The position numbers and the translations under genes are program-made. From NCBI RefSeq assembly GCF_011397635.1, contig NC_064759.1, forward strand, positions 22,096,428 to 22,160,427: a stretch of 64,000 bases of DNA. Reading direction: 5' to 3'. The notes beneath the pieces are model-generated. The model was given only the letters and a program-made list of their open reading frames with translations, made no database searches and was not told where the DNA came from. Origin of the DNA: Epinephelus fuscoguttatus. Its lineage: Eukaryota; Chordata; Actinopteri; Perciformes; Serranidae. Of the stretch, positions 2,456 through 62,350 are shown piece by piece (the first letter of the stretch is position 1; each line of letters begins with the position of its first letter).

Positions 2456-16211
<13,756 letters not shown>

Positions 16212-16939: not shown

Positions 16940-18245
16940 AGGTCTAGTGTGTAGGATTTGTGCCAGCCAACTGAAACTTTTCCCCTGTGCTAAGCATGTA
17001 GAACCATGGAGGCTGATGTGAAAACGTGAATGGTCCTATCTATAGCCAGTGTTTGGTTTGTCCATTCTGGGCTACATGATGGGTTGCTTACCCTGGAAAT
17101 CCAGAGTTTAAATTTGCTCAGTGAGTCACTCTGGCAATCAGTAATGATGCTCATTACCCATGCCGTTTGAGCCGAGCTGCACCAATCACATCGGTGTATC
17201 TGATATAGGCGGGCCAGAGGCGAGCTAAACAGATGACGACATTGCTGCAACGACAAAGTCCGGAATCAGTCAGTAAACATTGCAAGATGGCTACGGATGA
17301 CCACCAGTTGTTTGAAAAGGCTTTGGCCGCTACAATGAACGAGTTACACTTGGCCTTTTCTCGAAAAGAGGAACAGAAGACGGCGCTCGAATCTTTCCTT
17401 TGCAAGAAGGACATTTTTGCTGTTTGCCGACCGTATACGGCAAGAGTCTAATCTACCAGTTAGCTCCGCTGGTAGCACTCTGGATACGTCACCCCGTGTA
17501 TTGTTCTGATTGGTCATAGTGTTATCCAGTTGCGTGCAGTGATATTCTCAAATGCATGCTTGGTGCCATTTGCATTACTCATAGCCAGACCCTAAATCTT
17601 TCTAGATTTGGGTCTGGATTTCTAGGCTATGGATTGCTAGGAAGAGGACCCACTCCATATGTAGATATAAACAGCTCATTCTAAGGTAACCAAAACACAA
17701 CTATTCTAATTTTCAGGTGATTATAAACCAATGAAAAAAATGGTCATATACCATTTTATATACCATTTCTGCTGATGGGTTCCAAGACCAGCAGAGTATA
17801 GCTAATTCGGAAGATCGATAACACACAATTCTCAAAGAAGGCTTGGCTTGGACATGAAGAGGCAATTAGGTGGGCCAAGGTGATTATTTGTGGCAAGGTC
17901 ATCAGGTATTCAATCATTCATTTTCAGTAACCGCCTATCCTGTTAGGGGTCAAGTGGGGGCTGGAGCCTATCCCAGCTGACATTGAGCAAGAGGTGGGGT
18001 ACACCCTGGACAGGTCGCCAGACTATCACATTGTTGACACATAGAGACAGACAACCATTCACACTCTCCCATTTGCACGTACAGCCAATTAAAAGTCACC
18101 AGTTAACCTAACCTGCATGTCTTTGGATTGTGGGAGGAAGCTGGAGTACCTAGAGAAAACGCACGCTGACAAGAGGAGAACATGCAGACTCCGTAAAGGG
18201 TTTGAATCCCTCACTTGTGCCCCCTAAATCCAAAACACTGGACCT
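16940..18245 (+). mobile_element. TTAA-type nonautonomous DNA element with a nested retroposon
   Basis: The ends are inverted repeats: left AGGTCTAGTGTGTAGGATTT, right the reverse complement of AGGTCCAGTGTTTTGGATTT. Flanks are TTAG (16936-16939) and TCAA (18246-18249), each one base from TTAA. The uninterrupted paralogous copy reads TTAA at this exact spot (22066-22070), which gives an empty site. Elements with the same ends occur at 35817-36415 and, in part, from 60337. No transposase frame was seen. A LINE-type tail is nested inside (about 17925-18215). Confidence 0.85.
17925..18215 (+). mobile_element. RTE/Expander-like retroposon 3' fragment
   Basis: Contains strings shared by a very common teleost retroposon tail: GGAGCCTATCCCAGCTGACA, GGTACACCCTGGACAGGTCG, AACCTGCATGTCTTTGGA and GAGAACATGCAGACTCC. 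It has no coding frame and is a dead-on-arrival 3' fragment. The family name is from memory and would need a repeat-library match. Confidence 0.65.
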
Positions 18246-19105
18246 TCAATGTGAAAGGCGTGCTATATCATCACATGCTGTTTATGTGTGGCAGATGCCA
18301 AGAGCTTGGGGAAAAAGGCGAATCAAAAACATTATTTCTGGTCATGGCTTTTTAAAAAAAACTACAGAAATGTGCAGCATTGTGAGATTACATATAATTG
18401 TGTCAATGTTTTGCAGAAGCAGTCTGCAGATATTGAAACAAATACTTTGCACTGCTAAATGATTTTCTGGTCCCAGAAGATTTATGCAAGTCTCACAATT
18501 ATTCGGACCTTTAATACCAACCCCGGAGAAAATAAGCTCATTAATCAGAGTTTAGTATACAACTGCTCACATTGTCTCAAATGTTCCCACTCTATAGAGT
18601 TACATTTTGCCAGCACTGTGCCAGACTCAGATGTTACATATTTCCAAGACAAAAACTGAATGTGTCATTAGGAAACTGAACTCTCGTGCTGTTTTGTTTC
18701 TCACTCTGATATAATGTCACACAATACACATGACACAAACGTGCCCAGACAGATGCCAAATGCCTTTCTGACAGTCCATCACCTTTAAAGTACAAAACAG
18801 ATCAGAGTACAAAACATATACATGGAACTGCAGGGTTCTGCTTTGACAAGTGTTGGCAATAACAGACACTTAAACCAGCATGTTGAGTCGGCACTTTAAA
18901 ATTACAAGCAATTACTCTACATGTGAATACATACAGCCTGTCCCTTTGACTGACTTAGCTCCCATTCTTATTTAAATGCAGATGTGAGGCTATGATATGT
19001 TTCAGTGTGTAAAATTATATAAAAAGTACCGGCATTAATTAATGAAATACTGTCACAGGCAATGTAAACCTACAAATTAAACAATCCAAATGACCACTGG
19101 AAATG
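18246..19105. repeat. Duplicated segment, copy 1 main piece
   Basis: Runs parallel to 22071-22934 nearly base for base, including a long shared block around TTTAATACCAACCCCGGAG. It lies directly downstream of the glipr2 stop (minus strand, 19354), so it probably covers the glipr2 3' untranslated region or flank. A minus-strand ATTAAA at 18510-18515 could serve as its poly(A) signal. Confidence 0.85.
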
Positions 19106-19353: not shown

Positions 19354-22300
19354 TTAGGTGGTTTTAGCTGGGAGGACGTTGTTCTCAAAGTGTCCCTGGT
19401 TAGTGATATTCCCAGCTGGGAAGTATCTGGCCACCACGAAGGAAGAGCCATCTGATGCAGTGGCTTTACCAACACCCAGCTTAGTGCTGCTCTTCCACAC
19501 CATCGCTGTGAAATGGCCTAGATGTGAGTGAGAGAAAAAAAGGAGTAAATTAATGGCACACAAAGCAGGAGGGGATCAGACTGTTAGGACACGGCTGAGT
19601 GCAGTTCCTCTAAATATTTACAGAAAAAAAAAGAATTTTAATTCCTCTCTTACTCATCAGTCCAAAACCTCCCTGCACACTTTCTGTCTTTCTTTCTCTA
19701 TCAGACAACTTTATATGAATCAGTGTGAATCACTGTGATGAGCTGGAGCAATCTGCTTCATGTGTGATTAAGTTAAAAAGGCTCATGCACACTGGAGTCT
19801 GAGGCTATAGGAAACCATCTGGAGGAATTAGGCCATACTGGAAATGACATGTGGGCTGAAGAGTGATACAGAGGACTGTGATTTCCCCTCAGTTTCCCCA
19901 TGGCTGCTCACTGACTCAGACAGTCACACGCTGACTGAGGTGTGACATCAACAGGGGAACAACAACAACCTTGCCCATGCCTGGGTAAACATGACACCGA
20001 GACAGAGAAACTGACAGCCAGTGAACAGAAAATGACAAAGAGAAATAGAGCAAGAAATAGATACACTGAGATAAATGCACAGATCCAAAAATGAGGAGGA
20101 ATAAAATGAGACAAGACCAAAGGATACGACAACAAATGAGAAGGGAAATGTTTGCACATCCAGGTTAAGCTGAAAAAGTCACTTTTGAAATATTTGAAAA
20201 ATAAAGACATTTTCCTATTGCATTCAGTGCGATGAGCAAAGTTTTTATTATGTCAGGGCTTCTAGGAATAATTATTTTCAGTATTGATAAATCTACTGAT
20301 TTTTCCCCTTTATGAATTGATTCATTTTTGGGATATTAAGCCTTGGAAAACAGTTAAAAATTGCAATTCCAGTAGCCAAGTTAACATACTTAAATTGCTT
20401 GTTTCAGCTCATAACCTAACATGCACAAAATTCTAACCATTTTCTTAAAAAATTATCTACCTGTCTTCTAATCAAGGAATCAACTAATTGTTTAAGTTTT
20501 TCTATGTTTTGTTTTTCTGACTTATGAGTTTAATTGTTACATACTGTATTTTAACGGAGATCTTTATTTAACGTGAATCTATATCCTCTTTTACACTGCC
20601 AGATTTTCGGCGAATGTTGGGCCATTTTGCCGGCAAGCTGCAAGCGTTTAGACACACAGAGCTGGATTGGCAAGTTGATCGGAGGCGCCCAATTTTGCGC
20701 CTCGTAGGGTAGTCATATTGGCAGAGCCCTTTTAGTTTAAACAGACCGAGGCGGCCTTCCGCAACGGGAGGGGCTGTTGAAGACTTGTGGGAGGAGCTGT
20801 TGATGACGCCGCACGTGCGACCCACTGGCGGTGGATAAACAAGAAACAGCTGATAGCAGGAATTAGCGAGCAGCTAGTAGCAAGAGGGCAACGTAAACCT
20901 GACAGACACTGTAAAGATGAGCAACTGGGGAGACAAAGAATTGCGCGCCCTCCTTGCCCTCGCAAACGGAGAGGCCATTAACCGTCAAATGACGGGGACG
21001 GTGAAGAACGGGCCAACTTACGAGAGAATTGCCGAAGGACTGACTAGCCACGGCTTCCCTCCCACGTCACTGTTTACGTCACACGCTGAGCTACACGTTT
21101 TGTTACTTGCTCACGCCCCCATTGCCCCGAAAAAGGCGCATTCTGTATAACAAAAGTAGGTAGGCGGCATTTTGCTGCACTCCCTGATTTTGTTTTTATA
21201 CTGCCAATGCTGAAAAAGACTGATTGGGCTTCCCTGTAAATTTGCACAATTCTGATCTAAAAAGGGCTATGGTTCAGTGATTGTCTGGGCTCTCAACATG
21301 GAGGTGGCTGAGACTGCAGCTAGCAGCTGATGATGCTAACACTTAAAACAGCAGGAACAGTGCTGATCAACCTGGTCTCACTCTGAAGTCATCGAAATCT
21401 GGTGCTTGGGCAGTGACTTGCAGCATCAGACACTGATGAAAAAAGCTGTCCTTTAATGCTGTCGTGATAGGTGGCCGGTCGCCATTATAGTTTAAGGGCA
21501 CTCAGTGGTGTCAGGGGGAAACCCAACAAGGCAAGAATGAAAGTTAAGGTGGTGAAAGTCTGAGTAGGGTGGAGGGGTCCAACAAACACCGACTTTCACT
21601 TGCAAGAGTAGTGTTTGAGTCCCATGAGATTATAAAGCCAAACCCTGTTCTTTTTTCCTAAACCTATGGCCATGTGTTTTTGTTGCCTAAACCCAACCAC
21701 GTGTGTTAGTTGTTGGAGGGAAAAAAACGTCTATTTGCATTGTACTGATGTAGCGTGTTTATTTTGAAAGAGACTGTATGTAAACATTAAATTTCCTGTG
21801 AAAACAGAAGTGTAATTTGAAGGAAGACAATACATTGAACAGGCATAACTAACGCATCTAGGGTAAATTTCACGTTGTATCTGGACGTGGAAAGTCCATG
21901 ATCACATGTCAATATGTGACGAGGTCGGAGTGAGAATGTGTTGTGCTGATAGAGCTTACCGTGTTAACTAGGGAGCGTTTACTTTTTAAAAAAAATCTAT
22001 ATCTCAAACTCTTTATGTGATTTTTTTTTTGTATTCATATGCTCGAAATATATTCTCATTAGGCATTTAAAGTGAAAGGCGTGCTCTGTCATCACATGCT
22101 GTTCATGTGTGGCAGACGCCAAACGCTGAGAGAAATAGGCGAGGCAAAAACATAATTACTGGTGATGGCTTTTTTAAGGAAACAATGCAATGTACTGCAT
22201 TGTAAGATTACATTTAATAATTTCACTTTTTGCAGGAGCAGTCTGCAGATATTAAAAATAAATAAATACTTTGCACTGCTAAATTGTTTTCCAGAGGATT

Positions 22301-25300
22301 TATGCCAGTCTCACAATTATTCGGACCTTTAATACCAACCCCGGAGAAAATAAGCTCATTAATCAGTGTTTAGTAAACTGCTCACATTGTCCCAAATGTT
22401 CCCACTCTATAGAGTTACACTTCGCCAGCACTGTGCCAGACTCAAATGTAAAAAAGTGGATGTGTCATTATGAAACTGAACTCTCATGCTGTTTTGTTTC
22501 TCACTCTGATATAATGTCACACAATACACATGACACAAGTGTGCCCAGACAGATGCCAAATGCCTTTCTGACAGTCCATCACCTTTAAAGTACAAAACAG
22601 ATCAGAGTACAAAACATATACGTGGAACAGCAGGGTTCTGCTTTGACAAGTGTTGGCAATAACAGACACTTAAACCAGCATGTTGAGTCAGCACTTTTAA
22701 ATTACAAGCAATTACTCTACATGTGAATGCACAAAGCCTGTCCCTTTGACTGACTTAGCTTCCATTCTTATTTAAATGCAGATGTGAGGTGACGATGTGT
22801 TTCGCTGTGTGAAACTATAAAAAGTATTGGCAACTGGCAATTGGCAGTAAATGAATGAAATGCTGTCACAGGCAATGTAAATGAACATCAAAACCTAAAT
22901 TAGGCTAAACAATCCAAATGGTCACTGGAAATGTGAACCGGGGAGAACTGGAGGGTGGGCGCTACGCTTCCACAACAACGCTGTCCCAATATCAACTGCT
23001 GTATGAGCGCTATGTAGAGCCACAGCAATTAGCTAGCCAGTGGGATACACACACACAGGGGATCATGTGCACAAACATGCATGCGTGGCTGGAGCCTCTA
23101 TGGGGTCATCCCTATGTTCCCCGCTTTCCGAAAAGAGAAAATGCTGAATTAAATCAGGGAAGCCCCGCATAGACTATTTGTTGTGGAATTCGGCAAATTT
23201 TAGTGGAGAAAATGAGCCCTTTCTAAATATATGTGACTTTTGGGGAGCGTTGTCTGCGCCTTTGGGCATATAATCATGCGATCACATGAGGTAAGTGTGT
23301 TTATCTTTCACGTTTCAGGGGGAACATTGGACCCAGGGAACACAGGACCCTTTTTCGAAAAAGCGGGGAACAAAGGACCCTTTTCCGGAAAAAGGGTCCT
23401 ATGTTCTGCACCCGGGGAACATAGGACCCTTTTTCGGTCCCTATATTATAGGGGAACATAGGTACGGCTCCGTGTCTACCATGACAAAGAACAGAGAAGC
23501 TTAGATTACAACACACACAGAGGGAGTGTGACCTCATTCTCTGCTCAAGATGCTATTATATCTTTATATCGGAAAAGTTGCAATCATTACTTATGATTAT
23601 CCTGAAACTGAATTTGGTAATTTTGCCCAATTAGTTGTTATTATAGTGTAGGTAAGGAGGTTAGCCAGTGACTGAAATATGACAGGAAGTGAGGGAGACA
23701 GACAGACATCTTGTGCAAATCTCACCAGTGCCAGAGGAGAATCCAGGACGGTTGAAGTTGTACTGTTTCACTTCATCATACCAGCGGTCTGCTACATCCT
23801 TTCCTGCATGGGACAAAGTGTAACCTCAACTTCAAGGACAATCAGATCAGCCTTAAGTCGTACATATTGATCAGAATGACAGCAGTATAAGAAGAGTGCA
23901 CCCTGGAGCCACAAATCTCTTTGGGGCACATGTTGTTTACAATGCTGCACTTTTTGTCACCCAGTGGTGCACTGTGGGAGATGTTTTATGAATCACACCG
24001 TCCGGGGCTGACATATTTCTGCAGTGAGTCATGGTGTCTGAGCTCTCAAACACAGTGCGAAGTGGAGGGGAAATAGATCCCAGCTGTTCACTTTCAGGGT
24101 AGGACAGTTCACTTTCAGGCCTGTAGACTGAATTATTGTGTGTATGGAGGGTTGTGTATCTCAGGAGGAGCACAAAGACAGGATGCACAAAATTATTCAC
24201 TTTTTAGAATAGTATATTGAGAATGTGTGTACGTATATATATATATGTACCTGATTGATCATAGGAGGCCCATGCCAGGTTCTCTCCACAGCTCCCTCTA
24301 CTGGACTCCACGCTGTGCTTCAGGATCCTTGTGCTGGCCAGACTTTCAGCATAACTGCAGACAGTGACAAAGAAAGTTGCAGATAGTACTGCTGAAATAG
24401 TCTTCTCCGCCATGAATCCTGCAACAAAATCCGCTCCTGCTCTGGACAGATTGTCACTGCGGGTGGCTTATACTTTAAAGCTTGTCATTTCTTCAGATTA
24501 AAGCTTCCTGATGTCTCAGTTTTCAAAAGCTTGCTGCACTCTGCCGTTCTCCTTCCCTCAAGACAAACAATTAAAAACCCTTACCTCAGAGGTTTAATAG
24601 AGTGTAAATATGCAAAGCAGGCACAGAAACCAGTTCCTTTTAAACAACTGCTTTTGGTACCGTTTAAAAGACCATCTGGGGCTTACACAACATTTCCATG
24701 AAGTTCATTCTGCACAGTGACAAAGGAGTTTATGCCAACCGACTGCTTTTAACCAATTTAGTGTTGATGCAGTGATAATATTTACTCCAATTTACAATCT
24801 TGGGTGTGACCACAAGGACAGTGTTTAACATCTTGGCATGGCAGTATCTTGTTTACATCTCTGTTAATAAGACAATTGACTATCATGTGACTGCCATGTG
24901 ACCTCACAGCACAGTGTGGAATACACCACAGAAGTTAAATACAGGAAGTGTCCCTCAGTACAAAAGTGTTGTTTTTTTTTTTGAATGAAAAATCAAACCC
25001 CAGCTTTTCAGATACAAATCCAGCGAGCTTTGTTACTCATATGGTTGGATTATTTTCTAAATCTAGACATTATTCCTCAAGACATGCAGCTGTGAATGAG
25101 CAAATCATGCCCAACTGTCCTCTTGAACAGGGGTGAAACAGCTGCAAGTAGTGATGGGCGAAAATGAACAAATGGCTCTTTTTGAATGACTTAAGTTTTA
25201 GAGCAGCCTGTCAATCGTCCAAGTGCTTATGACTCCCCAACTTTTCCCACTCGTCCACTCATGGTTATTGTACGCTACTGATCACACTGCCTGCTACAAT

Positions 25301-27390: not shown

Positions 27391-28985
27391 GGTGCTGACA
27401 CAGGAAGCCTTCAGTAAGATCAGTAACAGGCTTAGCACTCAGCGAGAGCAGCCTCTCCCCTGTCTTGTTTTCTGTTCCTGCTCTCTGTCTCTTTCTCTGT
27501 TGCTCCCTCTCCCTCTCTTCCTGTAGTGCTGTCTATCTACCACTGATGCTTTCAAACAGCTGCTAATGCCTTTATTTTGGGGCCCTTCCTTCAATTCCTC
27601 CCTCTCTACTCCACTTTGAATTTACAGCAGTTGTGTAAAGTTCCTCTTTAGCACTGTGTAGAGATCATTACGTAACATGCTTCTTCCTCAACTTTTCTTC
27701 CACTTCTTTCAACTAAACCTGCCTGTCTCTCTTGAAGCCACACACCCAACTAATCTGCGTGCCCTACGTCTATCTTTATGTGTCAGAGGAGCACACACCC
27801 ACTCCTGTGTCTTTACATTCCCACAGCTGAAAGGGGAGCCCATGCAGACGTTGGTGACATCATCTCTGTGAGACACATGCCCATATATGGCTCTGAGAGT
27901 CTTGTTTTCTGCAACTTTGTAGCCACGGACAAGAGAATGTTACTCCTAACAACTGTAACCAGGACAGTGGCTTTCCTCACAGTCCATGCTGTCATGACGC
28001 AGTGTTGTGCCGGGCCACTGAAGACAATAGCAAACTTTGAGATGGGCCACACTGTGCAAATTGTCCATGCTTCTCTCTGTTTTTTTCTGAACTTAGCTAT
28101 ATATATATATATCCCTGTTTCAAAGCACACTTTCACTTTCAGTTGCGCTGATGGCTTCAAGGTTCTTCTGTCACAAAAACTTTACAGGGGACTTTCCACC
28201 TCCATCTTTCAGTTTCTTCAGTGACGTCTGGATCTATAAATTACACCCCACATACCCAATTGTAAATGAGTGATTCCGTAACCTCCACTTCGAATGAAAA
28301 AGCAATGATTGAGCAATTTGCCTACTGCAGTTGACACACAGGGAGAAGCTGAATCACCATTCATCATGCTGCAGAACAGGTTTCTACTATTTGTTTTGTC
28401 TGTATGAGGTATGCTTCTCTCTGTGTCCTAATGGTATTTCCAAACTGGGATATCTATCATTTAAAAAAAAAGAAAAAGACACCTGCTTTAACAAAGGTAC
28501 GGATGGTGTGCAACAAAACCTCAAAATGGATTAGCTCATATTTTACTGTACAGCTCATAACTCAGCCTTTGAAATTGTCCCTCCACTTTTTGCGAAGGCT
28601 ACAGTTTGTATAAAGAATGAATACTTAAGAAAAATGCCCTTTTCTCACACCCTCTAAATCAATAGGACTTTATTGTGTCAGCACCAAGGTGATTGCTAAT
28701 CTCCCGGTTGTGAATGTGAATTTATCAACACTTTGTTAGACTTGAATAAATTAAGGCCAATAAACACACACTCTAGTTACGACAGCTGAGTTGTAGCTCA
28801 GCCTTAAAGCCAAGGGAGTCAAAGAACACTGCTTGAGCTGTGCCCCCAGCACCACTTTAATGACACTGGGGTCACGGTTCCAGTTCACGTTCATGTGAGA
28901 TGCACAAGGCTTTCCGCTAACTCCAGTGTATCCCATCTGTGTCATTATTAGACGCTTAGAGCAATGGAAGATGTTTGAAGAGCAT
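27391..28985. other. Upstream flank of glipr2
   Basis: No coding exon was seen. Just upstream of the glipr2 ATG (to about 27530) the DNA is pyrimidine-rich on the plus strand. The glipr2 promoter and 5' untranslated region should lie here, since transcription runs toward lower coordinates. The rest is ordinary noncoding sequence with an (AT)n stretch near 28097-28113. Confidence 0.5.
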
Positions 28986-29430
28986 GAAAGTCCAATGAGG
29001 GTAGATGTGAGTGAGGTGGATGGGTCCAACAAACACTGGGCTTTGACCCAGGAGAGTGGTGTTCAAGACCAACAAACAACCAGCTGCATTTGAGCAATTC
29101 AAAGCCAGGTGATTTAGCAAAATGCTGCTGCCTTCCCATGTGCGTTTGTGCCACCAAAAACAGGTGTGTATTAGCATCACAATGCTGCATTTCCAACTGC
29201 ATTTGTGCTACTCAAAAGATAGGTGTTTTTTAGCAACCAGCACTGCCTTTCCAGTCGCATTTGTGCCACCAAAGCAAAGTGTTTTTTAGTGACACATTGC
29301 TAACTTTCCAACCGCATTTGTGCTATTCAAATGATGGGTGTTTTTTAGCGACACGCTTCTGCCTTTTCCTACCCTTATGCAAGTAGTCTTGTTGCCTAAA
29401 CCTAACTGCCAACCCCTTCTGCATAAGGTC
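28985..29430 (+). mobile_element. Diverged relative of the 7-bp-duplication element
   Basis: Shares with 21555-21720 the phrases GGGTCCAACAAACAC, GAGAGTGGTGTTCAAG (compare AGAGTAGTGTTTGAG) and TTGTTGCCTAAACC, in the same order and orientation. Between the last two blocks it carries a tandem repeat (29111-29360) instead of the short spacer. Its outer ends were not identified. Confidence 0.55.
29111..29360. repeat. Tandem repeat, unit about 59 bp
   Basis: About four diverged units, each with the core CATTTGTGC(T/C)A(C/T)(T/C)(C/A) followed by (G)GTGTTTTTTAGC. They begin near 29111, 29170, 29229 and 29287, with a partial fifth at 29345. It sits inside the element relative at 28985-29430. Confidence 0.8.
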
Positions 29431-29572
29431 GCCCCTGGCATCATGTTACAGACACCTGGGCCTTCTGTCCAAGCAAAAGAATACAAGGAGTACAGATGTG
29501 ATCATGCTATGTAGCTATGCTAACATGGCTACCACTTTGGTCCAGACTGAAATATCTCAACAACAACCCATT

Positions 29573-29898
29573 CAACATTGTATGTAGGGCCCATTTGGTC
29601 AGTAAATAAGCTGAAAAGTTGACCCTATATTGGATTGTCCATGGGTTCTTTAATGGCGCCATGCCAATTGCCCACATAGGTGGCTTTACTCAAGTGGGCC
29701 CAAGATAAGACCGCTCTTTTGGGCCCATACCCACTTGGTATCCAGGTAGCCGTAGCATAACCCATGTGGGTCCCACTTGGGTAAACCCACCAATGTGGAC
29801 AACTGGCATGGGGCCATTATAGAACCCATGGACAATCCAATATAGGGTCAACTTTTCAGCTTATTTACCAACCAAATGGGGCCCAAATACACATGTTG
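29573..29898. mobile_element. Full-length palindromic (foldback) element, copy A
   Basis: Almost the whole 326 bp is an imperfect inverted repeat. CAACATTGTATGTAGGGCCC at the left pairs with GGGCCCAAATACACATGTTG at the right, and TATTGGATTGTCCATGGGTT pairs with AACCCATGGACAATCCAATA. The centre lies near 29715. No coding capacity. A second family member lies at 47539-47868. Confidence 0.85.
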
Positions 29899-29899
29899 A

Positions 29900-32800
29900 C
29901 TGGGAATTAAATTGTTTGTCGACACTCATGGTCCCCAGGAAATGAATCCTACTTACTCTGGTGATCCCTTGACCTTTTCGTAGCAACATTGTCTGGTTAA
30001 AAATCTGGGTTTGTACAATATTTTGGTTTACAATATCATCCAAAAATCACATTCCCATCATCCTTTCCATGCTAACACACCAGATGCTAAACATAATACC
30101 TGCTAAACATAAGCATCATGTCATTGTGGGTATGTTCCAATGTTAGGATGAGAACAGCTAGCACGGATGTGAATCCTCAGTCATGTTGAGTCTTTTTCCA
30201 TTGCCACATTTTGTAATTTTGCTGTCTTGGCAAGTGATGCAGCGATTCATGCTGTGAATAGAGGAAATCATAATTTCAAAGACAGCCTCATAAATGAGTC
30301 ATATCAAGCTGAATGCCAGTTTGCAGTATATGTGTCAGCTTTATAAGAGGTCTAACAATCAACGCTTTGATATGTGATTTCTAAAGTCACCATAAGGCAA
30401 CTTGAAACTCCCCACAAAGAAGCAAGATAATCACTGTCTGAGCTGCTGATGCATCATTGCACCACAACACCACAATGTTGCAAGAAGGAAGAGTCTAGTA
30501 AGAACATCATGATAGCCATCAGCCAACATATACATATATTCCTGAAGATAAAGTATTCATACATAGTGTAAATATGTGGGTACCATTTTGTTTCTATGTG
30601 CATTACTGCAGCTCAAAAGGAGCTCTCCTTTCCCTTTATATGCTCTTTCTTGGGAGATGTCTTAAGTACATGAGTAAAAGTCTATTCAGAGTATTTAAAA
30701 TTTTAAAAGTATAACATTAAGCAATGTGTGTGCCACTCAGGATTTAAGAAGTCAATCTCTGGGTAATAAACATTGTGTGAACAAGGTCCCATGTCATACA
30801 TATTGTACAAGGGGCAAATGGGTGTGCGACCGATATTTCTTGTGGCGTCAACCATTGATTTTAATCCACTCCACTTCAAAAAAAAAAAAAAGAAACACAC
30901 ATTATAAGCAACTGTTCTGCATTGTGAGATGTTTCAGATACTTTGTCCAACCTCCTGTCTGATCCTTTCTGGTGTAATTATTGAGAATGCCACAAGGTGG
31001 GACTGTTAGCAAAGACACTGAACAAGGATGTGGTTTGACTATTAGTCACACTAAGTGTAACTAATGACATCTTAGTTTCATAATATGAGTGGACATGATG
31101 GGATTCATGTGAAAAGTCAAGCCACTTGATTTCTCATTAGCTGGATAGTGCTATCTTAACAAATTGATTTCCTCCTCGGTTCCTCCTACCATCTGCATAG
31201 TGATGGGACTGGACAGCTGGAAGAAGACATTTACATAGTGGTCTCGAGACACTGAGACTTTACAGCCATACATCTTAATTCATACTAATTGAGATAGCTG
31301 CGGAGTGTGTGTATTTGTGTGTATCCGCAGTGTGAATGTGTGTATTCGAGTGCGCGTGCGTGCACATGCAGTAGGAGGGATGGTGATGTGATTTATAGAG
31401 AGAGCCCCTTTTAGAGGGACAGTACAGACATCGATCCATGCAGATATTACATCATTTATCTCTGCACATTGGCTATATCTGCTGTACTTATTGCTTGGCT
31501 CCCCTCCCTGTCAGCTGCGACATCCTTCCTTCGCTTCTCCTCTCCTCCCCATCACTTTCCCTCTGTCTCTCGTCCCCTCCCTGCCTTCCCTCCAATTTGT
31601 AATTTTCATTTTTTCCTTACCTGAAGCCCCTAATGAAAATCTTCCAACAGATCCCTTATAAAAAAGAAAGGAACACCAAATTCTTTCTGGGCCAGAAATA
31701 ATTTTCCACTCCTGTCATGACTGAAGTGGATGTGGATTTATGGCAACAGAAATGTGAAATAACTCTAACTGGGGCTGTAAGTGCACTTCCTTGCATATAA
31801 TTCCTCTTTAGCGGTCCCAAGAGGAAGGTGAGGACTTTTTAATAACTCCTTCCATTCACCTCCATCCTCATTAAGAGGTCTAGTTGAGTGAAAATGGGGG
31901 GGTGTTGAGAGGATTGATCTCAGCCGAGAGAAAGAAAAGTGAGGGGGCTGTACTTTTTCGAAGGAGTTGTTGGAAGCTCTCTCTCCAGAGCTCTGCTCCA
32001 GAATTTGACACATCAAGAAGCCTTTTATGGTGTCATTAGTGTAACTGTTCCACCGAGGACAAATGATTCTGCGGGTTAAGAGGAGTTAATCACCTGCCAA
32101 TCAAACCTCATCAAGCCGCCTCTACGGATGAGGCTCTATACAAATCTCATCATATTTACGGAGCCTTCAATTAAGAAGAAACAGGCGAGGAGACGCATGC
32201 AGAGAGGAGCGAGCGACAGGGTGAGCAGAGGGCAAGCTGGGAGGGAAGGAAAGGAAGAAAGACAGAGATAGAGGAAGACAGAGACAGTAAGCAGAGCTGG
32301 ACGACTCCTGTCTGACACTAAGCAGCAGAAACGTAATGTCTTAAAAGGCCATCGCAGTCAATAAAGTTCCTAATGTGCTTAAAGCAATTACTGTGTCCGG
32401 AGAGGAGCAGAGTGCATGCAGGATATTAACCTCAGTAACCCGCTCTATCTGGTCCATAATTAAATTATCCTCACATCCTCATTCTAATACAGACACACAC
32501 ACTTGAACACTCACACACACACTGATGCAAGCATACATTGATGCATGTTCACATTAAGTATTAGCTGAACCATATCCTGACCTGACAAGAGAAGAAAAAC
32601 AAGAATAAAAGTGAATGTGAGAGATAGATGATGATGATGTGAGATGTCAGCGCTGATAACAGCACAAGTATTGTTTCAGCCTGAGGTTGATTGACATGTT
32701 ATGATTTGGTCTTTTAGGTGGCATCTCAAACACACTGTAGATTTCCATGCACGCACTTGAGAACAAATGATCAACTCTCTGACTGTGTCAATGGTCTCTC

Positions 32801-35180: not shown

Positions 35181-35816
35181 TATCAATATAGTGAAAACTT
35201 CAAAAGTCTGCACTACATACAGCATTTTATATCAGTAAAAACAGACATGGATTACATTGCAACTTGTCTGATTGGCCGAGGCGTACAGCTGCAAGGTGGT
35301 TAGTCTACTTATACTTCCCCGTGATTACAATTCCAGGAAAATAGCACGCAAATTAAATCATTCCATAATTTTTCTGCACTCTTCCACCTATTCATACCTC
35401 ATTTTCATTTTCCTCTTTGCACTCATTGTTTACATAGGTCCTCTAATTGTGGCTGACATTTGGATCTGCTGCATGTTTCTTAAACTCCTCTACCTCTCTC
35501 CCTCTGCATTATGTGTATTCAAATTTAAATAGCTATGTCCAAGTAGTGTAACTAATAAGCTCTTCGAGTTGATTTAATGCTGTTTAATAGTTGTCATACA
35601 AAATGTTATTTGCAGAGCAAAAGAAAAATCTTGACACTGTGAATGCTTATTATTGCCACTAAAAATAAGTAACCACCCTTAAGCGTTATGCATGGGGCCC
35701 TGGTGAAGCTTTCCTCAGCATCTGGGGCGGCTTTTGTGGTTGGACTGGGCAGCGAGCTAATTTAGTATTTCTGGATGGTGCCTCTTTGGTTTGTTTTGCT
35801 ATGTTTGTATTGTTAA

Positions 35817-36415
35817 AGGCCCAGGGTGTAGGATTTAGGGGGATATATTGGCAGAAATGAAATATAATAGGTATGTTTTCCTATATATCTTATAAGTATC
35901 TTTATTTTTTCGTTACCTCAGGACCTGTTTCCAACAAGCAGTATGGTACAGGTCGGTACGCTTTTTTCCCCGTTTCCACTGTGAATAGTTGTGGATGGTA
36001 CCAATGGATCCGTTCCGTACCATCCCCGTTTTTGATCACCCCTCTGTTGGGGTACTTGGCACACTGATCTGGTACTACAAGGTCGGGCTGTGAACACTGC
36101 AGTCCGTTGACTGGTCAATAGAGGACGGTCAGTCTGCTCAGGGCTGAATTGCTGCCTGCAACATGCTAAACAGCATAAGAGTAAGATTGATTTGTAATGT
36201 GAAACTGCTTTCTTACATGTTTTTACCTTTTTGTATCACCCGGTACAGAAGATACCTCTGTAGTTAATGCAGCCCCTGGTAAAAAAAAACAAAAAAAAAC
36301 ACAAAAACATCCTGCACAAAAAACACTGAAGGAATTCTAACCTAGAGAAGTTAAAGCTCGTTGCAATCTTCAGTCCTCACTAATAAATCGCCCTCAAATC
36401 TTACACACTGTTCCT
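35817..36415 (+). mobile_element. TTAA-flanked nonautonomous DNA element with inner insertion
   Basis: Exact TTAA on both sides (35813-35816 and 36416-36419). The ends are inverted repeats: AGGCCCAGGGTGTAGGATTT on the left, and AGGAACAGTGTGTAAGATTT as the reverse complement of the right. Same family as 16940-18245. The middle (about 35930-36250), rich in GGTACC-type motifs, looks like a second element inserted into it. An A-rich run lies at 36281-36306. Confidence 0.85.
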
Positions 36416-38709
36416 TTAAGTAATATTTTCTGACCTAGCCTTGGGAATTCTAAGCTGCTTCTTCAGATCAACGTAACACAGAGCTATCTGTTAAATAAGA
36501 ATTGCGAGTCTGATGGTGCTTATGAATGTGTGTGGGTGTATGTGTGGGTGGGTATGGGTGCCTTTGTCTAGGTGTGCTTTGTTTACCATGCTGGGGAGGA
36601 CACCATTGCTCTGGCAAGACGATACAGGAGGATAGGCTGTCTGGGAAAAAGGTGTAAGCCCATCAGCAGGCTGTCAACCACACTCTCACACACACATTTT
36701 CACACGTACACACACACACAAGAATAAAATACAGCCATCATACTAACTAATAGAGAGATGGAGATAGGGAAAATATTTTTGTCACTGGTCACTGCCAGTC
36801 TGCTGCATCCACCAGTATGAATTCATATTCAAGAAGCCATATACCCTTGTATACAGTATACAGTCACATGAACAGCAATTTGTCACTGTGTGGTGTTTAA
36901 GCTGTTGTGATGAACACTGTGTGAATATTATGAACTGGGTTAGTGCACTGAATTTAACCATATCAGCTGGTACAAACCCAGCAGGAACTACAGCTTAAAC
37001 CATGTTACAGCAAGTAAGCACTTTTGGAAGATTCATACACATGTCCTTGAGGTATTTGAATAGCACATGTTAATGAATATTTAACGGTGAAAATAGTAAC
37101 CTCTGAGCAGACTTGACTTTCACTGCATATTTAAGGACATATCTCACTGCGTTAACAGGAAGGAAATTATGATTTTTATCAGTAAATGCAAAACCGCATC
37201 TATGCTTCACTCTCTATAAGTGACAGCTCCTTCATGGCACTGATGAGAATTAAATAGGTGTTGAACGTTGTGGCATTAACAGCTTGTTGATGTCATTTAC
37301 ACAATGACTGCAATCGTCTCTGTGAGAATGTGATCTTTGGCACTATCAAGCCACCTCTCAACAGAAATAAAGACTTGTCTATCACAGAGGGCTCTCACTG
37401 ATGATTGAAGTTGGTGACACCTGGCTATTGCAGCTTCATTCCTTTCTGCCTTATAAGGCCATTTTCAATAGAGATGTATTGTACATTTGACTCCAATGGA
37501 GTATCTCAGACTCATTCAGCCTAAGGATGCTTCATAGATGGATAAATGTGAAAATTGTGAGGTCTAAATAAAGAGCACAGGAAAGTCATGTGGCTCACAA
37601 TATGCCCTTCAATAGAAGTGTGTATTTATAAGGACAATTAAAGCTGGAATGCAGGACTTCCTTTAACAAGGAGCTAATGAAATGCTGGTGAAGCCTTTTG
37701 CTGCCAGGTGAAGCTGTCTGTATTTTGCAGGAGTTTTGTCACAGTCTGTGGTGTCTTTCCTGCATTGCTGCACCAGACGTTATGCATTTTGCATCAACCT
37801 GAGGGGCTCGATGGAGCAGCAGTTAGGAGTGTGGGGGAAGCTATGTTGGAATATCCAAAAAGTTATAGAGTGGATATTACAGATAAAAAGGGGTTAAAGT
37901 GTCATGAATCAATTCAGGAAGGACCCAAATGCAGAAGACAAGGCAGGTTGAAGGTTAACCAAAACGTGAGCTTTAATGCTGATGGAAATTCCTCAAATTC
38001 CTCCTGATAGATCAAACTATGACGCCCTACCCCTCGAGCGTCAGATTTGGACGCTAAGGGACAGCCATTACATGTCTTGTGTCTTTTCAAAGTGAACGTC
38101 TGTTTTCATAGGAAATATACAGTTTCTGCCTGCAGACAATAAACTTACAATGTAGGTAAAAAATGACCACCACTTACTGTTCTTGTCTGGTATGCAAGCT
38201 GCTATTCAAATTGTTGAATATTTGCACATTTGATTTGATTGCAGTTACATCTTTGCACCACTTGATTGCACATATTTATTTTTATTTTGTATTATCGCTT
38301 TTATTCTATACTTCATCATGGGTCAGTTCAGAATTAAATGTTGTTTTGATTTGCTGTATGCCTGTGCATAACTGTAGAAATGACAAAAAAGCCTCTTGAA
38401 TCTTGAATCTTGCATAAATTTAGGCAACAAAAGTATGGCTTAGAAAAACATCATGGTTCGGCTTAAAATAATTACAGTTGTCACTAATGCAGTGCAACTT
38501 CAGTGAAAGACCCAGTGCTACTAGTGTTGAATCCTACACACACTAAGACACTACATTGTTATTAGAATATTTTTTTAATTTATATGTTTATCGCTTTTTA
38601 AAGGCATAGGAAAAAACATAGGAAAAACAAAGCCAACAGGCACAGCACATCATATGTAACAGTGGCCTAGTCACAGTGATTAGTACAAGTAGTAATAGTA
38701 AAAATTAAG

Positions 38710-39090
38710 TATACAGAAAAGGAAACATGTACACAGCAATGTGCTTCATGTAAAAAATATTATTACATTAGCCTTCGCTCTGAAAGAATTTCAGTACAGG
38801 GTCCCAAATCATATCAAACACAGCACCTCTATCGTCATTATACAATCTCAGTCTCTCCAGATGTAATGAATTAAATTATATGTAGGAACACAGTCCATCT
38901 TCCACACTCATAAAATGAACTTCTCTGCAATCACCATTCCAAATAAAACAGACATTTTTTGATATTTGCCAGCAGAGGATAAGGAGCTGGTTGCTCCAAT
39001 GATAGTACTGAATAACTTGATTGATTTTTGGTTTCACATGGGACATGAACAGCAGTCTCTCAGGTGAAAGTCCAGTGTTTGTTTCACCCA
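38710..39090 (-). pseudogene. Possible L1-like ORF2 C-terminal remnant
   Basis: On the minus strand a 71-residue frame (39091-38876) followed by LERLRLYNDD...WDPVLKFFQ reads like the extreme C-terminus of a fish LINE-1-type ORF2, which ends in a similar aromatic WxPFL pattern. A stop interrupts the join. The call rests on weak pattern similarity. Confidence 0.35.
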
Positions 39091-40397
39091 TCCACCTCCC
39101 ATCCCGCCCACCATATGCCGTCTTGCTGTTTATACTATGACAGTTGCTTTAGTGTCAAAATAATGCCACCGCCTGATGCGTCTCAAAACGCCACTAAAGG
39201 GTGTCGCTATTTGACAAGTTGGGAATGAGACTGTGTTGCACCTGCAGGCGTAAATCATAAGCACACGTTGACAGTGTTTATGTAGTTACTCTCACTGCCA
39301 GAGGGGGGAGACAAAAAGTCCCACACTCCATCTTTAAGTTAGACAGCAAACATGTATGTCCACAAGGATACTGAGCAAACACGAACGAGTAGAAATAAAA
39401 TGATTTTTTTGTTTGTTTGTTTGCCCTGAGAAGTGCGTGTTAGTATTTCAGCGAAGGATAAAGCTACCGGACAGCTCAATACTGCATGTCTGTACTGCTA
39501 ATATTCAATTTATTTGCTCTCACTGTGTGTTCACTCTCTATTTGTGGTCATGGATCATAGAAGGCCAGGGAGAACAAACAAAATTTTTTTAATATGAGGC
39601 GAAAATGCATGACCATAGCCTTCGGGTGGAGAAGGACAGCACGGTAGGGACCATTTGTATTTGTGTGTGTGTGTGTACATGTGTGCAAGACATAAAGAAA
39701 GGGACCATTTCTCTCAGAGCCAAAATGAGGTTGGGGAATTGGATAGAACACTTTCGTTCCCCCCAATGAAAGTGCCTCTCTCATATTTGCGGGAGGACAT
39801 ATGGGGTGTGAAGCAAAGCCATCGGATGGCGATGGGGGGAGAGGAATGCTCGCGAGCCTGAAGAGATGACAAGAAAAAAAAACCCCTGAAACCGAGTTAA
39901 GGGGGAATCAGTAGGGGAGATTGCCTGGGAAACCTCTGCTCTGGCACCACTGTAAACTTTAATGAAGAAACTTCCTGAGTCTCTCATATGGGGGACGGAG
40001 AGCCCCTGTTACAGCTTTCTAAACAAAATTCTGTCAAACGCTGATGGGCTGGAGTCTGGACAGCATGTTCTAACACCATGGAGCACAATATGTAGTGTCC
40101 ACCTCACCTTACTCCATCACTGAGAATGTGCTGATACACTAGGCTCACACATGGGCAGAGGCACCCACAAAGCATGCACGCGCCTTTTACGCACGCACAC
40201 ACACAGCGAGAGATGCACACACAAGCAAGACAAGGTGGTAGACAGTCGGTGTGGAGATAGATGGGGGAGGTAAATAGGGGTGTCATGGCAGTGTGATGGA
40301 ATGAGGCAGGGGAGAATTCATCCTGTGTTTCCTCTAGCCTCTGTCCCCCTGCTGACAGCATCCTGAAATAGGGCCCACTGTGTCTGTATATATATAC

Positions 40398-46780: not shown

Positions 46781-47538
46781 AGAAAAAAAAAACATTAACA
46801 GCTGAACCCTATATGGATGTAAAATGATTGTTATGTTGTATGACATTGCTCGGGTAATTGTAAAACATGAACAAAAATGTACATAGAATAAATACCAGAG
46901 AACTGTCTTAAATCTTGTGTAAAATATTGCCAAACTGATGAAATTTTACTGACAGCTAACAAATGTTTTCCCCAGAAAAGTTGCGCTAGTCATGGGGAAA
47001 GTTACAGCATGTTGCCAAGGACAAAATGTGATGGAAAAATCTCATTGCAGCCTCATGACTCGCATTTCCTTGAGTGTGAAGTCAGTTTAAATTTCATCGC
47101 TGTTCACTCTAATGTTAGCAGGGTGTTTGTCTTTACCCTCTAGGCTACTATAGTTTAAAACACATTGTTTCGTCCCCGCCAGAGGTCTAGGGGAAGGGGG
47201 AGTAACACGGTGAAAAAAGAAAAAAGGCAAGCAAAACAAATCGCCAGTTCAAACGAAGTTTATTTAAAATGAAAACAGGAAATAGGACAATCATCGAAAT
47301 ATGAGCTCCAAAGGGTGGTTAGCGTTAGGAAAAGATGTCCAGGTGGGTGTGTTGTGTTGTGAGTGAGGAGTACGCAAGACTATACGTAGACCATAGGCTG
47401 TAAAAATAATGGATGTAGCTACCATGACGTCACCCATGGGTTTGTAAAGCCTCGAGTTCGGCATTTCAGCCATCGCCATCTTGGTTTTTTGGATACAGAA
47501 TTGAACATAATTGTGCAAGTAGCTGGACACTATCACCC

Positions 47539-47868
47539 AGCCAATGTTTGTATGTGGGGCCCATGTGGGTAGTAAACAGGCTGGAAAATGGGCCCTATAT
47601 GGGAATGTTCATGGGTTACATATTGACCCAATACCAATCGCCCACACTGGTGGGTTTACCCAAGTGGGCCTGAGATAACGTGCCCATTTTGGGCTCATGC
47701 CCACTTAGTACCTAGTGGTCCTAGCATAACAATGTGGGGCCCAATTGGGTGAAGCCATTGATGTGGGCAATTGGCATGAGGCCAATGTAGAAGCCATGGG
47801 CAATCCCATATAGGGCACATTTTTCAACCCATTTACTAACCACAAAGGCCCCACATACAAATGCTGGC
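47539..47868. mobile_element. Full-length palindromic (foldback) element, copy B
   Basis: Same family as 29573-29898. GCCAATGTTTGTATGTGGGG at the left pairs with CCCCACATACAAATGCTGGC at the right, and GGGCCCTATATGGGA pairs with TCCCATATAGGGCAC. The whole element is an imperfect inverted repeat without coding capacity. Confidence 0.85.
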
Positions 47869-49239
47869 CTGCCCTTAATTATCTGTAATTTTAAGCTTTC
47901 ATAATATGTAAACAGGTTTTATGTAGACACTTATGTAAATATTTACTCCCATAGAATGAAAAGTTGGCCATTTTAACATGCGGGCCTACAGGGATTGACT
48001 GGCTTCTGCAGCCAATCTTAGTTTAGTTTAATCTTAGCTCTGGAGGTTGCCACTTGATTGCACAGTTGTGATTGTACATCTATGCTGCACAATGCAACTT
48101 GATGTGTAGGCTGCTGTTTTGGAGGAAAACTGTTGCCAAGTTTATTAATGAATTACTTAGTATTAGATCGGTGCACAGACTCACATACTTGCCAATGCCA
48201 GATCCAGCATTTTAAGCAGTATTGGAGGCATTTCTGACTCTGTTATTGCAACAACTGTAGTAATATTGCATACATCAGTATTACCACAGAACGACTGCTC
48301 GCTCATTCAGTCACAGGTTTTATAACCATTGTGATTAGAGCCCCCATAAAGCTGAGACCATGTCCTGATGCTGCTCTGAATTGTAAGAGACGGAAAGAGA
48401 GACAGGAAGATGTGCGTGTGCATCTGAGGGAAAGAGAAAGTGAGGTTATGCGTGTGTATGTGTGTGTGTGTGGAGTGAAGTGTGTTACAAGGAAAGATTG
48501 GATCTGACCCATTAACTTTACAGGCCACTCATTGAGCACCGGTGCAGCAGGGGTCAGTAGGGAGATTTCACTGTAAATCTCTGCAACGATCACGATGATA
48601 GACTGGAGAGGGAGAGGGGGGGAGGAGAGAGAGAGAGAGAGAGAAAAGCACAGCTTGCAACACAGTTCCTGACTCTGTCCAAAGCCAAGATAAGTTTCAC
48701 TAAGGATATCATCTGCTGCCAACAAGCCAGCTGGACTTTATTTTCTTCTGTTACTCATTTAAACGCCCGACAAAAAAAAAGGGCTTTGACAGCTTAGCCA
48801 TTTGCTGAGCAAATGATGAGTATATGTGGGCTGTTTTTCAGCCGGGCTCTCTCATGTTTCTGCCTTAAGAAAAGCTGTTTTTAGATATGGCCTTTCTGGC
48901 TGTGTCAGGTCACGGCCTGCAAACCGAAAACATAACCTCAAAAGGATAGCTAAGGGGGCTCATATGAGGACACTCTGTGCCTCAAGGAAGACACAAACAG
49001 CAGATGTGTCGTGTGGAGGAGGTGAAGTGAGAAGAGGAAAAAAGTCAGTGTACCAAACATCCTTCCTCAGACCGGGGTGTTTCTCGCTCTCCTTTTGCCC
49101 TGCGGCACAGCAGCTCCTTGGCTTGGTCACACCTCAGATCTAGCTACCTCTACCTCCTCTACACACCGAACCCCTGCAGTGGTGCAACCATTCTCTAGCA
49201 GCACTTCCAACACACGCAGCCCCTCTCTATGCCATTTCC

Positions 49240-54977: not shown

Positions 54978-60041
<5,064 letters not shown>

Positions 60042-60336: not shown

Positions 60337-60506
60337 AGGCCAAGTGTATTGGATTTAGGGGGATAAATCGACAGAGATGTAATATGATATAATAAAGATG
60401 TTTTCTTTAGTGTGTAATCACCTGAAAATAAGATTAGTTGTTGTTGTTTTCATCACCTTAGAATGAGCGGTTTATATCTACAAAGGGAGTAGGTCCTCAT
60501 CCATGG
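60337..60506 (+). mobile_element. TTAA-family element, left part, host of the array element
   Basis: Preceded by TTAA (60333-60336) and starting AGGCCAAGTGTATTGGATTT, like the elements at 16940 and 35817. Its body resumes after the insertion at 62206 (CCATGTTTCTATGTTAGCCC, then ACCACTGGCTCTAGATGG). The right terminus is uncertain. Confidence 0.7.
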
Positions 60507-62205
60507 CAACACATTCTCCCTCATCACGTCATGGACTTTCTAGTCTGCACGTGACTGTTGTACGTTCACACAGGACGTGCAAGTTACCCTGGATGCGTGT
60601 CAAGTTCTGCCTGTTACATGCATTGTCTTCTTTCAAGATACACTTCCATTTTCACAGGAAATTTAACGTTTACACACAGTCTCTCTCAAAATAAAGGCAC
60701 TATGTCGGTACAACACTGCAAATTGACATTTTTTCCCCTCGACAACAAACACATGTAGTTAGGTTTAGGCAACAAACACACGTGGTTAGGTTTAGTCAAC
60801 AAAAGCATGTAGTTGGGTTTAGGCAACAAACACACGTGGTTAGGTTTATGCAACAAAAACACATGATTGGGTTTAGGCAACAAAAACACGTGGTTAGGTT
60901 TAGTCAACAAAAGCATGTAGTTGGGTTTAGGCAACAATAACAAATAGTTAGGTTTAGGCAACAAACACACGTGGTTGGGTTTAGGTAACAAAAACACGTG
61001 GTTGGGTTTAGGCAACAAAAACACGTGGTTAGGTTTAGTCAACAAAAGCATGTAGTTGGGTTTAGGCAACAAAAAAAACGTGGTTGGGTTTAGGCAACAA
61101 TAACACGTGGTTGGGTTTAGGCAACAAAACCATGTGGTTAAGTTTAGGCAACAAAGACACGTGGTTGGGTTTAGGCAACAAACACACGTGGTTGGGTTTA
61201 GGCAACAAAAACACGTGATTGGGTTTAGGCAACAAAAACACGTGGTTGGGTTTAGGCAACAAAAACACGTGGTTAGGTTTAGTCAACAAAAGCATGTAGT
61301 TGGGTTTAGGCAACCAAAAAAACGTGGTTGGGTTTAGGCAACAATAACACGTGGTTGGGTTTGGGCAACAAAAGCAAGTGGCTGGGTTTAGGCAACAACA
61401 ACACGTGGTTAGGTTTAGTCAACAAAAGCATGTAGTTGGGTTTAGGCAACAAAAAAAACGTGGTTGGGTTTAGGCAACAAAAGCAAGTGGCTTGGTTTAG
61501 GCAACAACAACACGTGGTTAGGTTTAGTCAACAAAAGCGTGTAGTTGGGTTTAGGCAACAAAAAAAACGTGGTTGGGTTTAGGCAACAATAACACGTGGT
61601 TGGGTTTAGGCAACAAAAGCATGTGGTTAAGTTTAGGCAACAAACACATGTGGTTGGGTTTAGGCAACAAAAACACATGATTGGGTTTAGGCAACAAAAA
61701 CACGTGGTTGGGTTTAGTCAACAAAAGCATGTAGTTGGGTTTAGGCAACAAAAAAAATGTGGTTGGGTTTAGGCAACAATAACACGTGGTTGGGTTTAGG
61801 CAACAAAAGCATGTGGTTAAGTTTAGGCAACAAAAGCAAGTGGCTGGGTTTAGGCAACAACAACATGTGGTTGGGTTTAGGCAACAAAAGCACGTGGTTG
61901 GGTTTAAGCAACAAGAGCACGTGGTTGGGTTTAGGCAACAAAAGCATGTGGTTAGGTGTAGACAACAAAAGCACATGGTTAGGTTTAGGCAACAAAAGTA
62001 CATGTCGCAATCACAGACCTCTCAGTCTTAACTTTTGTCCTTGTCCCGCCATGTTTCCCCCTTACACCACCATGCGCGATTAAACTATAATGGCAACCGT
62101 TGCATATCATGCTGACGTTAAAGGACGCCTCTTTCATGGGTTTTTGATTTTACAAGTCACTGCATAAGCGCCGGATTTTGATGACTTCGGAGTGAGACCG
62201 GGCTC
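60507..62205 (-). mobile_element. Array-bearing copy of the 7-bp-duplication element
   Basis: Flanked by identical TCCATGG at 60500-60506 and 62206-62212. The left end, CAACACATTCTCCCTCATCA, is the reverse complement of the right end of the compact copy (21368-21943). The right end, TCGGAGTGAGACCGGGCTC, is the reverse complement of its left end. Inner flanks also correspond (for example ACTATAATGGCAACCG against CGCCATTATAGTTTA). The difference is the centre, where one 27-bp unit has become about 1.25 kb of tandem copies. Confidence 0.88.
60751..61999. repeat. 27-bp minisatellite array, about 46 units
   Basis: Consensus near GTGGTTGGGTTTAGGCAACA plus AAAACAC. Variant units with TTAGTCAACAAAAGCATGTA recur near 60791, 60899, 61036, 61278, 61415, 61522 and 61710. 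These spacings are multiples of about 27 bp, which shows a higher-order pattern and duplication of multi-unit blocks. Because 27 is divisible by 3 and the unit lacks stops in several frames, both strands show long repetitive open frames; these are not genes. Confidence 0.95.
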
Positions 62206-62350
62206 TCCATGGAGATGGCCATGTTGCACTGCCATGTTTCTATGTTAGCCCAGAATATAGAAACCACTGGCTCTAGATGGCACCATTCATGTTTTCATAT
62301 CTGCCACCATAGTTAGAAGCCCATCAGTGTTGAGCACGGTTGGAAACCAC

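Follow-up and report, generated by a model that had tools for sequence, protein, structure and literature searches.

A 27-bp unit inside a non-autonomous, MITE-like DNA transposon has probably been amplified into a long tandem array after the transposon inserted. In the window analysed here (the whole stretch of 64,000 nucleotides, C8:22096428-22160427), we estimate at roughly 0.85 the probability that the sequence at 60507-62205, hereafter the long copy, is an old insertion of such an element in which the array grew after landing by unequal exchange, gene conversion or slippage, as other copies of the family would have done independently.

Two copies of one element bordered by exact duplications

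The initial annotation had paired the long copy with a compact copy in opposite orientation, each bordered by a perfect 7-bp duplication. Coordinates, ends and duplications were reproduced, and the opposite orientation was seen in the alignment. The features are as follows.

60507-62205, minus strand: long copy, array-bearing MITE-like element of 1,699 bp, delimited by its ends and by a 7-bp duplication whose register matches that of the compact copy
60500-60506, no strand: target-site duplication TCCATGG, low-coordinate side of the long copy, exact
62206-62212, no strand: target-site duplication TCCATGG, high-coordinate side of the long copy, exact
60507-60742, minus strand: right arm of the long copy (236 bases), 81.6% identical to 21713-21943 over 223 aligned sites
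60743-62005, plus strand: 27-bp tandem array of the long copy, from TRF and unit parse
62006-62205, minus strand: left arm of the long copy, with about 85-90 bp of its inner part missing by alignment to the compact copy
21368-21943, plus strand: compact copy of the element, 576 bp
21361-21367, no strand: target-site duplication TGCTGAT of the compact copy, exact
21944-21950, no strand: target-site duplication TGCTGAT of the compact copy, exact
21657-21712, minus strand: two diverged 27-bp units of the compact copy, found with a two-unit query (87.5% match over 56 columns)

The ends of the two copies lie at matched places, and their letters agree in part (CAACCTGG versus GAGCCCGG at one end), so that the common termini claimed earlier hold for position and partly for sequence. 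Common inner flanks were likewise borne out on the right side and only in part on the left, where some 85-90 bp of the inner arm is absent from the long copy. The outer left arms are 75.1% identical over 173 sites, and the K2P distance between the copies is 0.32 in the left outer arm and 0.21 in the right arm. An exact 7-mer at one fixed register is expected by chance in about 7e-5 per copy; in the window, 7-mer matches spaced about as far apart as in each copy number 8 in 63,410 and 1 in 62,287. The compact copy had been credited with one unit; it holds two diverged ones, and the exact 20-mer of that annotation is present once. A fusion of two elements was rejected for the long copy, which has a single left arm, a single right arm and one duplication, and the proposal that an internal unit of one element was amplified with its duplications intact was thus upheld.

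TRF describes the array at 60743-61997 with period 27, 46.3 copies and a score of 1709, and the unit parse gives 46 full units plus one partial unit of 16 bp, in agreement with the roughly 46 units first reported. Since the array was judged from the assembled sequence alone, its length might have been invented by the assembler; this is very improbable, because the units are not identical (30 distinct types among 46) and arrays elsewhere carry variants of their own. Every open frame of at least 110 aa in the long copy passes through the array, and the compact copy has no open frame of that length. A coding role was rejected, since a unit of 27 bases (3 x 9) accounts for the frames, one of 198 aa, that stay open through the array. 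A protein search with the 198-aa frame returned 3 relatives out of 1,137 candidates; judged by eye, they repeat about every nine residues, like the unit, and hint at similar arrays in other sequenced DNA. Folding of five units as a single strand gave z -2.07, with 6 of 200 shuffles equally good, and was given no weight.

Structure and class of the element family

The element ends in imperfect terminal inverted repeats (CAACNNNNTCTCACTC), whose two sides match at 12 of 16 positions in the compact copy and 10 of 16 in the long copy. On the element strand the unit reads CCTAAACC[C/T]AACCACGTGTTTTTGTTG and mostly occurs once or twice in the interior. Seven array-free copies bearing an exact 7-bp duplication measure 479-932 bp, and the family has the properties of a MITE, namely a short length (576 bp in the compact copy), terminal inverted repeats and a 7-bp target-site duplication. 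Among 36 copies (the two window copies and 34 loci), a search run without a shuffled control found an exact 7-bp duplication at matched ends in 8, including the window's two, and a duplication with one mismatch in 5 more (L010, L013, L019, L022 and L035, of which L010 and L019 have weak ends); none was found in the other 23. L035 is a second array copy with both ends, carrying 39 units.

Members of the hAT superfamily make target-site duplications of 8 bp. The compact copy and L022 are readable as having an 8-bp duplication via one common adjacent base, whereas the long copy is not, and hAT was rejected since the exact duplications are 7 bp in most copies that have one. Galileo, of the P superfamily, is described in the available part of its report as making a 7-bp duplication (PMC2775673); the length found here agrees with this, and the duplicated sequences vary and differ from Galileo's GTAGTAC. 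Dada elements, as far as the accessible text of PMC8869645 tells, insert into multicopy small RNA genes with a 6- or 7-bp duplication. Dada was set aside on its target rather than on duplication length: the long copy sits within another repeat, and an Rfam scan of the window gave nothing at gathering score. The seven-base duplication thus appears to speak against hAT and would fit the P superfamily (as Galileo) or, by length, Dada.

The long copy sits in a repeat that is itself interspersed and has relatives in the window at 17629-17761 and 35813-35869. Neither showed a clean empty site, since the former ends close to the insertion point and the latter is divergent.

Unit numbers across the genome

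The genome searched comprises 1.047 Gb in 26 contigs. At up to two mismatches the 27-base unit occurs 1,743 times and the reversed pattern 0 times, and a motif across two unit joints has 1,690 matches versus 1 in the control. At least one element arm is present in all 28 of the first distinct loci with an exact unit (L002-L029, the window's own excluded). By parse, 20 of them have two units, three have one, one has three and four have arrays, measured by TRF at 47.7 (L004), 20.1 (L020), 52.1 (L024) and 51.3 units (L029, where only the left arm was seen). Loci L030-L036, which were picked for clustered unit matches and are not a random sample, carry arrays of 97, 46.5, 25.3, 11, at least 110, 39 and 6 units, in that order, and 143.8 units lie between two arms at C1:5746400-5753000. 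Among the matches listed, which span the first 21.3 Mb of C1, there are six array loci up to C1:21317621, with 144, 25, 39, 6, 3 and 25 units; all six adjoin an arm and four have both arms. L042 adjoins a right arm; the sole arm beside L040 resembles that of a distant relative at 28.9 kb in the window. Extrapolation from these six loci gives about 300 array loci genome-wide. Across the family, arrays range from 3 to 144 units.

Copies were also collected from the arms. The compact copy's right arm gave 3,047 first-look candidates. Scores were obtained for 40, among them the compact copy, and the sequences of the other 39 were retrieved in lengths of 641 bp. Motif counts in these were 0 (4 copies), 1 (15), 2 (14), 3 (5) and at least 21 (one copy, L047). 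Measured as length between two anchors, about one unit is present in 14 of the 39, so that copies of the single-unit length do exist, and two units are present in 10 and three in 1. A length of six was obtained for L047, because its array exceeds the anchors, and for L055, because other sequence lies between them; no unit number was assignable in the remaining 12. The long copy's right arm gave 4,376 first-look candidates, again with 40 scored. No array was found in the best 20 of the 39 scored other relatives, where a laxer motif, which tends to overcount by one, gave counts of 1 (5 copies), 2 (11) and 3 (4). Identity of these 20 to the long copy is 90-94% and is confined to roughly bases 3-155 of the 236-base right arm, so that their standing as its nearest relatives rests on about 140 bp and the outer part of the arm (60507-60742) differs among them; its outer ends seem to vary as in a mosaic family. 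Taking both searches together, 58 of 59 arm-seeded copies have 0-3 units by motif count and one has at least 21, the 59 being best-scoring copies and not a random draw.

Evidence on whether the array grew in place

Copies with and without arrays are intermingled: a tree of 36 copies needs 10 changes to account for its 11 array rows, and a single clade of array copies was rejected (AU p 0.00018). Of 39 rows with arms available, L031, L033 and L040 had been dropped for fewer than 200 aligned bases. Support in the tree is poor (23 of 33 inner branches open, 2 starred), its label of two units includes a few rows with one or three, and its rows were mostly seeded on the unit and assembled from the best match per arm per locus, by which two copies in one locus could mix. 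The median terminal branch length is 0.13, compared with 0.18 for the long copy.

An element already holding many units could have transposed to this site. Intact duplications are equally expected from such a transposition, and similar sizes of 46-52 units recur in the long copy, L004, L024, L029 and L031. We nevertheless consider it quite unlikely that the array arrived in this way: other copies in the same genome have few units, arrays are absent from the 20 best relatives found with the long copy's right arm, and array copies form no single clade, which together argue that the array did not travel in. Unit order points in the same direction, since two successive identical units were shared by 0 of 55 pairs among 11 arrays (L029, L030 and L035 being parsed only in part). 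This test is weak for an old transposed array, because exact order is lost at the arms' divergence.

Similarity within arrays bears on growth in place. Units are nearest to others of their own array in 106 of 107 cases in L034, 34 of 44 in L004, 33 of 44 in L031 and 31 of 42 in L024; the long copy gives 20 of 40 (15 ties) and L032 gives 7 of 17 (7 ties), and in L020, L029, L030, L033 and L035 the units resemble those of other arrays as closely as those of their own. The offset of the longest exact internal repeat, determined for 12 arrays, is 3 to 11 units in ten of them and 1.9 and 1.0 units in the remaining two. The best-matching blocks of 4-6 units in the long copy, being the best out of many comparisons, are 96.9-98.2% identical; compared with an arm branch of 0.18, this suggests that the latest block duplications are younger than the insertion. 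Shuffling unit order was a weak control: the longest run in the long copy is 6 units (shuffles: mean 3.1, maximum 7), and its best lag was equalled by 22 of 500 shuffles. Judged from these sequences, the evidence favours in-place growth of the array over arrival with the element, two routes between which the initial annotation had not chosen.

Growth in place would proceed as follows. The element would insert carrying the unit mostly once or twice, and neighbouring units would then misalign through unequal exchange, gene conversion or replication slippage; two neighbouring units suffice for misaligned exchange or slippage. In the long copy the unit number would have risen to 46, with multi-unit blocks duplicating on the way, and the same amplification, repeated independently in other copies, would have given the arrays of different sizes. 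Whole-unit steps at one place, multi-unit shifts and private variants appear to fit either molecular act. If two ancestral units had exchanged unequally, hybrid units might mark the event, but this signature was not relied on: the 5' half of array units is mixed, although the 3' half is nearly always of the first-unit type; only some arrays keep the second-unit type at the right edge, and the sample had been chosen by exact unit.

Arrays with no detected arm at one locus

The initial annotation had held that arrays occurring without the element's ends would count against its reading. Such arrays were found at one locus, C17:4874900-4882600, which contains three arrays of 5, 97 and 49 units (L039, L030 and L038); no element arm or end was detected at E 1e-3 across the 7.7 kb retrieved. 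The other array loci that were retrieved adjoin an arm. The two long arrays there are the most degenerate seen, with TRF matches of 74 and 65%.

These arrays could be a source from which the element captured pieces, the satellite having come first, and capture has been proposed for another MITE, miDNA4, in the part of PMC12628747 available. Such an origin is unlikely. Among the arm-seeded copies of the compact element, 25 of 39 hold about one, two or three units' length at the corresponding position in the element, and the association of all six array loci on the first part of C1 with an arm (at L040 of the 28.9-kb-relative type only) also stands against it. The degeneracy of the two long C17 arrays is as expected of decayed arrays, which makes them less likely to be the source. 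Under growth in place, we infer that they would represent a final stage at which arrays lose their arms.

Relation to known repeat-bearing elements

Satellite DNA forms long element-free arrays in heterochromatin. The array of the long copy lies inside an element and extends over 1.25 kb, with a single locus elsewhere lacking detected arms, and it is a minisatellite within an element, not a satellite. The family agrees with a MITE-borne minisatellite of the miDNA4 type, having one to many units in one element family and arrays within the element. The earlier description as a direct view of satellite birth is therefore fair for one stage, the structure being a minisatellite and the process having been published for other MITEs.

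In the sections available of two reviews (PMC9659126, PMC12628747), miDNA4 of Xenopus tropicalis (Scalvenzi and Pollet 2014) is a MITE whose internal repeat is single or in variable arrays, and is regarded as a route to satellite arrays that lack the element's ends. The present family is like it in having an internal repeat as few units or as an array, and unlike it, as miDNA4 is listed there under Tc1/mariner, in its 7-bp duplication and 27-bp unit. The capture of an existing repeat suggested by the authors of miDNA4, as the accessible text reports it, fits less well here than growth from a resident one- or two-unit state. The Xstir / Xmix MITE of Xenopus (Hikosaka and Kawahara 2004) has given MITE-derived tandem repeats, with MITE, array and composite forms coexisting, and its Xstir repeat is placed in the terminal inverted repeat by the table of one review and internally by the other, in the same sections (PMC9659126, PMC12628747). 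Unlike Xstir as described there, the repeat here lies mid-element between two unlike arms. For the non-autonomous DNA transposon Tetris / TIR-220 of Drosophila virilis, the available part of PMC4079207 describes internal tandem repeats grown to satellite-like arrays and proposes unequal crossing-over; its repeats of about 220 bp lie in long foldback inverted repeats, in contrast to the 27-bp unit between arms here.

Searches of the open-access literature found no paper carrying the letters of the unit, the element end or the flanking repeat. To judge from a title, tandem-repeat-bearing MITEs are also reported from the clam Donax trunculus. The element family may well be catalogued already. No match was found in the viral_contigs collection, and the only one in the genome_contigs collection, 21 bases in Pseudoalteromonas, was taken as chance.

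The process is known from other MITEs, and what is unusual here is the number of apparently independent cases in one genome. Origins of tandem arrays are usually deduced from finished satellites; here one family in one genome presents a series that runs from single and double units through short arrays to arrays of 20-144 units beside arms, and to a locus whose arrays have no detected arm. With array copies interspersed with ordinary ones, each array looks like a separate trial, so that the rate of amplification and the sequences that trigger it could be estimated. The chances are about even that the 27-bp word of this dead transposon family is intrinsically prone to amplification and has grown independently in perhaps hundreds of insertions, from one or two up to 144 units, with some arrays losing the element. 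If so, the family would be a replicated natural series of satellite birth whose trigger could be readable from sequence.

Other relatives and repeats in the window

A third, distant relative of the element lies at 28939-29406 and carries a different tandem array, of about 57 bp (29126-29366, 4.2 copies), which adjoins a 27-bp unit at 29389-29406; when the 57-bp array was compared with the 27-bp unit, 10 of 500 shuffles scored as high. A fourth relative, at 38030-39237 (minus strand), has a left end that begins CAACACAGTCTCATTCC, an inner left arm and a portion of the right arm, and is interrupted by about 1 kb of other sequence. A repeat of about 350 bp, at 29566-29919 and 47535-47886, aligns to its partner in either orientation, which is the pattern expected of a near-palindromic element. 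A 0.9-kb repeat at 18236-19105 and 22057-22933 is 84% identical between its two copies, the second of which starts about 110 bp after the compact element. At 6342-11879 there is an open frame of 1,845 residues with a very acidic middle and no Pfam match at E 0.001. The repeats may resemble those of ray-finned fish, and an animal source is indicated by a STEAP-like exon at 56917-57297, with STEAP4 as the best solved relative (E 1e-26).
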